DNA from: Sphingomonas natans
GTDB taxonomy: Bacteria > Pseudomonadota > Alphaproteobacteria > Sphingomonadales > Sphingomonadaceae
DNA: 64,000 nucleotides
NCBI RefSeq assembly: GCF_030546695.1
Contig: NZ_JAUOTP010000010.1
Location: forward strand, 124,001 to 188,000
Direction of reading: 5' to 3'
The notes under the pieces were generated by a model. The model saw only the letters and a program-made list of their open reading frames with translations, was not told the DNA's origin and did not search any database. The stretch's first letter is position 1; each line of letters opens with the position of its first letter. Shown piece by piece: positions 46,423 through 46,574 of this stretch. A program made the position numbers and the translations under genes.

Positions 46423-46574
46423 GAATCCAGCGGGACTCTCCGGTCAAGAGTCCGCGTGCGAAAGGCACCGGTCTGCCCGGCTCCTCCGCCCGGACGATCG
46501 CAAAGTTATCCACAGGATGTGGCGATCGTTGGCAGGGACGGACTCAAATTGTGGTGGTGTTGCCGAAAAGACTC
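46423..46574. promoter_or_regulatory. GANTC cluster and DnaA box upstream of ccrM
   Basis: Five GANTC sites lie at 46423, 46434, 46448, 46541 and 46570, where chance in GC-rich DNA predicts well under one. A consensus DnaA box TTATCCACA lies at 46506-46514. The DNA lies between ccrM (leftward) and the COX IV-pnt operon (rightward). In Caulobacter ccrM is repressed by methylation of GANTC sites in its own leader, so these are the natural candidates here. The rest of the gap up to 46663 shows no gene. Confidence 0.75.

Follow-up and report, generated by a model that had tools for sequence, protein, structure and literature searches.

Stephens et al. reportedly described, in 1995, a ccrM promoter with methylation feedback in Caulobacter crescentus. 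To go by the passages of the published work that we draw on here, both methylation control of ccrM and a predicted control by DnaA are already in print. The Caulobacter ccrM promoter carries GANTC sites, and ccrM itself is most probably a target of methylation control (PMC2217572, PMC3973325); one of these papers also reports that GANTC is enriched in intergenic DNA (PMC3973325). In Caulobacter, a GANTC site between the -35 and -10 elements goes with timed activation (PMC4287350), and the podJ and mipZ promoters have DnaA motifs further upstream (PMC4287350, PMC7987155). In Brevundimonas, a preference for the extended context YGAKTCK was not found, according to the part of PMC7987155 that treats it. 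For the Sphingomonadales, the relevant part of PMC8116508 describes up to five GANTC sites before ctrA, and it describes CtrA as dispensable for growth in Sphingomonas melonis. Finally, Brilli et al. (2010) used a weight matrix to predict that DnaA controls ccrM, for the most part in organisms whose ccrM lacks CtrA sites, and the passage in question names cluster C (Magnetospirillum, Rhodospirillum) (PMC2877005).

We analyzed the DNA upstream of ccrM in a 64-kb stretch of the genome of Sphingomonas natans (we call this whole stretch the window). As in Caulobacter, the control region of ccrM contains GANTC sites, and methylation-dependent transcription would be expected (PMC3973325, PMC2217572, both in part). 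Unlike the Caulobacter ccrM promoter, as we take it from these descriptions, the control region carries 3 to 10 GANTC sites in 300 bp across 73 relatives (from the best 80 of 591 matches to CcrM), and it has a core with two sites at -35/-10 and, frequently, a perfect DnaA box. In those portions of the open-licence literature that could be searched, we found no description of the present GANTC array, its double-site core, or the moving DnaA box at ccrM, and looking up terms in PMC3667746 and PMC3885167 found nothing about the ccrM promoter.

The region between ccrM and cox4

ccrM and the first gene of a cox4-pnt operon are divergent, and they are separated by an intergenic region of 277 bp (46387-46663; Table 1). 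The original prediction was that five GANTC sites and a DnaA box are packed upstream of ccrM, and that the same interval is the 5' region of the COX IV-pnt operon. All five sites and the box are exactly where they were predicted to be. The gene beside the array is indeed ccrM: besides its Pfam domains, its best solved relative is PDB 6pbd ('Modification methylase CcrMI', E = 3.3e-157), which we take to be the Caulobacter enzyme. On the other side, COX4_pro_2, PntA, the 4TM subunit, and PntB lie where a COX IV-pnt operon was expected. In the genus alignment, as read by eye, the start codon of ccrM is ATG or GTG at this position.

Table 1. Features at the ccrM locus (positions are within the window).
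Feature	Position	Strand	Remarks
rnhB	42474..43229	+	Beyond folP, opposed; in relatives, the usual tandem upstream neighbor of ccrM
folP-like gene (Pterin_bind)	43116..44213	-	Downstream of ccrM; would have moved with ccrM in the putative inversion
ccrM, GANTC adenine methyltransferase	45253..46386	-	GTG start at 46386; PF01555 (N6_N4_Mtase) and PF18755 (RAMA)
GANTC, GATTC on the ccrM strand	46423..46427	-	At the expected -10 of ccrM; core site 2, conserved
GANTC, GAGTC on the ccrM strand	46434..46438	-	Core site 1; 3 bp past the -35 hexamer
Putative ccrM -35 hexamer, TTGACC	46442..46447	-	CTTGACC invariant in 7/7 genus sequences
GANTC abutting the -35 on its upstream side	46448..46452	-	Absent from some genus members
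Perfect DnaA box, TTATCCACA	46506..46514	+	Lies 67 bp upstream of where the ccrM -35 starts
Distal block: two GANTC sites (46541, 46570), 29 bp apart, flanking a conserved CACACC-like stretch	46541..46574	-	
Putative cox4-pnt promoter: TTGAGA, 16 bp, CTAAAC	46608..46635	+	No GANTC; from genus alignment and from similarity, by eye, to unlinked pnt loci
COX4_pro_2 (small aa3-type cytochrome c oxidase subunit IV-like protein)	46664..46795	+	First gene of the pnt operon
pntA, transhydrogenase alpha subunit	46800..47927	+	
pnt 4TM subunit	48043..48345	+	
pntB, transhydrogenase beta subunit	48413..49894	+	

The GANTC sites at 46434 and 46448 form a palindrome around the ccrM -35 (GGACTCT-N7-AGAGTCC, with 7-bp arms), and we did not find this palindrome to be conserved across the genus alignment. 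The DnaA box sits between 8-bp inverted arms, ACGATCGC and GCGATCGT (46494-46529); as judged by eye, the genus alignment does not preserve these arms either. A scan for the sigma-70 consensus across 46200-46900 found no promoters.

We counted GANTC sites in a sample of this genome that comprises the window and 60 stretches of 20 kb, or 1,264,000 bases in all (28% of 4.56 Mb). Just one of 1,255,094 intervals of 152 bp has five sites, and none has more; in other words, a matching density was not found elsewhere in this sample. Two other places have four sites. Overall, GANTC is depleted in the window (80 sites, vs. a mean of 380 in shuffled sequences), and according to a crude mask, it is denser in the noncoding-like DNA of the sample than in the coding-like DNA (2.08 vs. 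1.26 per kb). One explanation for the cluster, then, is that GANTC is avoided within genes, so that the cluster is just the usual intergenic excess, while the box arose by chance. Both the depletion and the higher density outside of genes fit this explanation, and the sample includes 444 noncoding-like stretches of at least 100 bp, so a cluster in some stretch or other is not very unlikely. Because the interval was picked by eye, and because there are so many candidate stretches, the cluster is notable but not decisive if judged by this genome alone. As for the box, the genome as a whole shows no enrichment of perfect DnaA boxes (14, vs. 13 for the reversed control), and at this rate, the chance of a perfect box in a given 300 bp is about 1 in 1000.

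Conservation of the array and of the core promoter

We compared the DNA upstream of ccrM across relatives. Among the best 80 of 591 confirmed matches to CcrM in named genomes, 73 were taken as Sphingomonadales, and the other 7 were set apart as non-Sphingomonadales from their titles. (The 73 include two loci, L041 and L043, that are titled only as Alphaproteobacteria and Proteobacteria; on the tree of CcrM, L041 and L067 fall on the side of the 7 non-Sphingomonadales loci.) The upstream interval begins 330 bp and ends 30 bp before a fixed codon of CcrM, and this choice of 300 bp was made after inspecting the positions of the sites. Counts of loci are not counts of independent events, and we took changes of state from the CcrM tree, which was built with a quick method.

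Upstream of ccrM in these 73 loci (from the best 80 of 591), there are 440 GANTC sites, or 20.1 per kb, as compared to 645 sites, or 1.35 per kb, in the other 477 kb of the same loci. Every one of the 73 has at least three sites in the 300 bp, and the richest has 10. Within the genus (7 genomes), the interval has 2 to 5 sites, with just 2 left in L122. We also considered 63 genomes of the class from outside the Sphingomonadaceae that have a match to CcrM at 1e-60, and we compared the best-scoring 40. In these other alphaproteobacterial families (best 40 of 63), GANTC is again denser upstream of ccrM than downstream (11.5 vs. 1.45 per kb), and 6 of the 40 have no upstream site.

The alignments and the consensus show a core promoter motif. 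Read in the direction of ccrM, the core is CTTGAC, about 3 bp, GANTC, 10-11 bp, and a second GANTC (often GACTCA), which is near the expected -10. In the window, the sites at 46423, 46434, and 46448 form or touch the core. Upstream of the core, the consensus has the distal GANTC pair (in the window, 46541 and 46570), and then, in many loci, GACTCAA.ATCT with a GTTC stretch, and TTAACCA. The two sites of the distal pair are 29 or 30 bp apart: a 29-bp pair of GANTC sites is found in 41 of the 80 sequences and a 30-bp pair in 18 of the 80. By its recurrence in these alignments, the distal block is a ccrM element that is common to relatives. We also noticed conserved stretches without GANTC (CACACC, GACTCAA.ATCT, and GTTC) at roughly -270 to -180 relative to the codon used as anchor in CcrM, in L013 and others; the CACACC stretch is the one between the distal pair.

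The full core (TTGAC-GANTC-GANTC) is present in 47 of the 73 loci (best 80 of 591) and in 2 of the 7 genus genomes, while 68 of the 73 and all 7 genus genomes have TTGAC and, within 22 bp of it, one or more GANTC sites. Elsewhere in the 73 loci, the core was not found at all (0 in 955 kb, counting both strands). A slightly tighter version of the pattern has just two matches in the whole genome, one of which is ccrM, and the reversed control has none. The other match (G000:C6:292318-292341, or about 3319-3342 of L158) is upstream of a small ORF, which is a candidate for a co-regulated gene. Among the other alphaproteobacterial families, 19 of the 40 (best 40 of 63) have the core, so to judge by these genomes, it is found widely across the class, though not everywhere.

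Given these results, we consider it very improbable that the cluster reflects the usual intergenic excess of GANTC: noncoding-like DNA has 2.08 sites per kb, and the DNA upstream of pnt genes that are not linked to ccrM has 1.88 per kb, as against 20.1 per kb at ccrM (73 loci, best 80 of 591). Also, the intergenic excess would not account for the recurring spacings or the recurrent DnaA boxes that we describe below. For the loci examined, conservation refutes both chance and intergenic excess. Although the single genome was indecisive, GANTC sites and the DnaA box recur upstream of ccrM in the relatives, and by this conservation, which is the decisive evidence, the cluster and the box are real and more than chance. 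On the same comparisons, the interval is best explained as the region that holds the promoter and regulatory sites of ccrM, common to the Sphingomonadales relatives and in part to the class.

Candidate inputs to ccrM: GcrA, DnaA, and CtrA

What might read the array? GcrA is encoded in this genome (PF07750, E = 2e-42). Because it is encoded, and because timed activation in Caulobacter goes along with a GANTC site between -35 and -10, GcrA would be the first candidate. At ccrM, GANTC lies within the predicted -35 to -10 region, which is like the GcrA-associated promoters ctrA P1, mipZ, and podJ, as far as the sections on these promoters describe them (PMC4287350, PMC7987155). Unlike those promoters, the core here has two sites, and YGAKTCK, the extended context that GcrA prefers in Caulobacter, is not above background in the 73 loci. 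Specifically, in the 73 loci (best 80 of 591), 115 of the 440 upstream sites (26%) have this context, vs. 209 of 645 background sites (32%), and at the two core sites, it is found in 2 of 47 and 3 of 47 loci. In the 40 other families (best 40 of 63), 45 of 138 sites have it, including 9 of 19 and 6 of 19 at the two core sites. A GcrA signature in the form of this extended motif was tested, and it was not found in the 73 loci.

Alternatively, the array could be read by a protein that binds hemimethylated GANTC sites on one face of the helix, much as SeqA reads paired GATC sites in enterobacteria. Besides the lack of enrichment of the GcrA context, the spacings lend this some support. Across the 73 loci (best 80 of 591), the distances between pairs peak at 8-11, 18-20, 28-30, 37-39, and 47-51 bp. 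Pairs at 9-12 bp number 35 in the 40 other families (best 40 of 63), vs. 15 expected, and the largest number in 2000 simulations was 28. However, the peaks in the 73 loci share descent, and there is an off-phase peak at 41 bp (18 pairs). In the 40 families, the 9-12 bp class takes in the core promoter pair, pairs at 28-30 bp are weak (14 vs. 8.9, with 4.7% of simulations as high), and pairs at 34 bp are as common as any (12). Helical phasing is thus suggestive in the 73 loci and weak in the independent families, and we think that a reader of this kind is rather unlikely.

DnaA boxes are a second recurrent feature. In the 73 loci (best 80 of 591), there are 36 exact boxes upstream of ccrM, in 34 of the loci, where 0.05 would be expected; there is just one exact box in the remaining 477 kb. 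None of 200 shuffled 9-mers was found upstream of ccrM in more than 3 loci. The other 39 of the 73 lack an exact box there. If one mismatch is allowed, 41 of the 73 have a box, but 60 control sequences with one mismatch average 2.1 loci, with a largest value of 13. Because these controls reach 13 loci, it is the exact boxes that carry the signal. In the genus, 5 of the 7 genomes have an exact box. Just 3 of the 40 other alphaproteobacterial families (best 40 of 63) do, so a frequent DnaA box at ccrM looks like a trait of the Sphingomonadales. A DnaA motif upstream of ccrM is also what Brilli et al. predicted; unlike the weight-matrix prediction, as the passage gives it, what we see here is exact boxes (in 34 of 73 loci from the best 80 of 591) with repeated turnover (PMC2877005).

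The box is not at a fixed place. Relative to the -35, it is at -67 or -68 in 4 of the 7 genus genomes and at +37 in a fifth. Among the 34 box-bearing loci of the 73 (best 80 of 591), it is at -87 to -99 in nine (for example, -93 in L053) and at +28 to +36 in 24 (for example, +28 in L071), and one has no core. The +28 group is mostly relatives of Erythrobacter, by title. Boxes are found in both orientations; in G002 (L122), the box is reversed and beyond the core. On the CcrM tree, the presence or absence of the box requires at least 14 changes, 7 of which are forced by starred branches. Repeated gain, loss, or movement of the box is hard to explain without selection and so argues for selection. 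A box at +28 to +37 would overlap the start region, as the site of a repressor would, while a box at -67 or -93 would act from upstream, as an activator site or as an architectural one. DnaA's effect on ccrM may differ in sign between clades.

A perfect box with inverted repeats nearby might also mark a replication origin or a site that titrates DnaA. But the box is a single one: the nearest other match in the window with at most one mismatch is at 50878, 4.4 kb away. Also, the distance of the box from the promoter varies, yet the box stays with ccrM. An origin or a titration site is highly improbable; as to an origin in particular, we rejected it because there is one perfect box instead of a cluster.

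CtrA-type half sites are common upstream of ccrM as well, with 70 vs. 0.5 expected, in 42 of the 73 loci (best 80 of 591), and they are present in 7 of the 40 other alphaproteobacterial families (best 40 of 63). Of the 34 loci in the 73 with an exact DnaA box, 23 have CtrA half sites and 11 do not. Unlike a Caulobacter-type ccrM promoter, none of the 7 upstream sequences from the window's genus (the window and L117-L122) has a CtrA-type half site.

Putting this together, we believe that ccrM is probably controlled by methylation feedback and by the timing of replication, with DnaA as a direct, added input. Passage of the replication fork would leave the array hemimethylated, and the hemimethylated array would switch the transcription of ccrM, either directly through RNA polymerase or through GcrA. 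CcrM would then re-methylate the array and so complete the loop, and the period in which CcrM is made would be set by fork passage. DnaA at its box would provide a second and direct signal, from the initiation of replication. In the genus, where CtrA-type half sites are absent, control would come mainly from methylation and DnaA. We also suggest, tentatively, a more specific possibility: that DnaA acts directly on ccrM across the Sphingomonadales, with the spaced GANTC array as a methylation counter, and that in this genus, DnaA and CcrM alone make up a replication clock of two parts, with CtrA bypassed.

The cox4-pnt operon

The original prediction went further and proposed that methylation, replication timing, and DnaA could jointly set the expression of ccrM and of the transhydrogenase. 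The part about ccrM is supported, as the array and the box recur far beyond chance, while the part about pnt is not, as the unlinked pnt genes that we compared lack the array.

If the array and the box set both ccrM and COX IV-pnt, then this genus would have its supply of NADPH tied to the cell cycle. The arrangement of the genes is what makes this plausible. The two transcription units share the 277-bp region, cox4 is head to head with ccrM in all 7 genus genomes, and pntA is beside ccrM in 6 of these 7; the nearest GANTC site ends 33 bp upstream of the -35-like hexamer of pnt. Outside the genus, pnt is linked to ccrM in 2 of 28 genomes from other genera (G033 and G051).

The wider comparison points the other way. 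A search for PntA in 59 genomes of the family gave 30 loci (2 from the genus and 28 from other genera), along with a second copy in this genome. Upstream of cox4 or pnt genes that are not linked to ccrM, we found 15 GANTC sites in 7,985 bp, or 1.88 per kb, which is the background density (27 regions, including this genome's second copy; for 14 of the 27, cox4 was not detected and we measured from pntA, so the interval may be partly cox4 coding sequence). None of these 27 regions has a DnaA box. Conversely, all 73 of the ccrM loci (best 80 of 591) have a dense array without pnt beside it (0 of 73 linked, in flanks of up to 3 kb). And in the single-contig genus genome G002 (L122), cox4 is head to head with ccrM, yet there is no match to PntA at 1e-60.

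The second cox4-pntA copy in this genome (G000:C7:395693-396817, L157) is away from ccrM, and its PntA is 97% identical. It has a similar promoter of the CTTGAG type and no GANTC array, with a single GANTC site 337 bp away. The resemblance between the pnt promoters of the window and of the unlinked loci was judged by eye. From these similarities, the cox4-pnt operon has its own putative promoter, between the array and its first gene, and this promoter-like sequence lacks GANTC. Furthermore, we found no link between pnt and the cell cycle in the accessible portions of the open-licence literature. Overall, we consider joint control of ccrM and pnt to be unlikely, and we rejected the cell-cycle coupling of pnt as unsupported: the 27 unlinked regions have neither the array nor the box, and G002 has no match to PntA. 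A local spill-over of the array's effect onto pnt is conceivable, but nothing shows it.

Why, then, does the operon adjoin the array? In 68 of the 73 loci (best 80 of 591), rnhB is in tandem upstream of ccrM, within 500 bp in 33 of them. In L002, L032, L033, and L035, the order is rnhB, ccrM, folP, pntA, all in one direction, with cox4 before pntA in three of these. Flipping the ccrM-folP segment of an L002-type order reproduces the gene order in the window. The gene orders fit a local inversion that set cox4-pnt beside the array, and this inversion would be why the two are adjacent. In summary, the ccrM array is real and conserved, while pnt looks ordinary and seems to be a bystander.

This does away with a tempting but unsupported connection of redox metabolism to the cell cycle. 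What the ccrM promoter does bear on is the timing of the methyltransferase in alphaproteobacteria outside of the Caulobacter model. This promoter carries sites for CcrM, frequently has a DnaA box, and has CtrA half sites in many of the relatives, and it offers a compact setting in which to test how such inputs are integrated and how they get rewired. That the box has repeatedly been gained, lost, or moved suggests that the input from DnaA matters, while its exact place does not.
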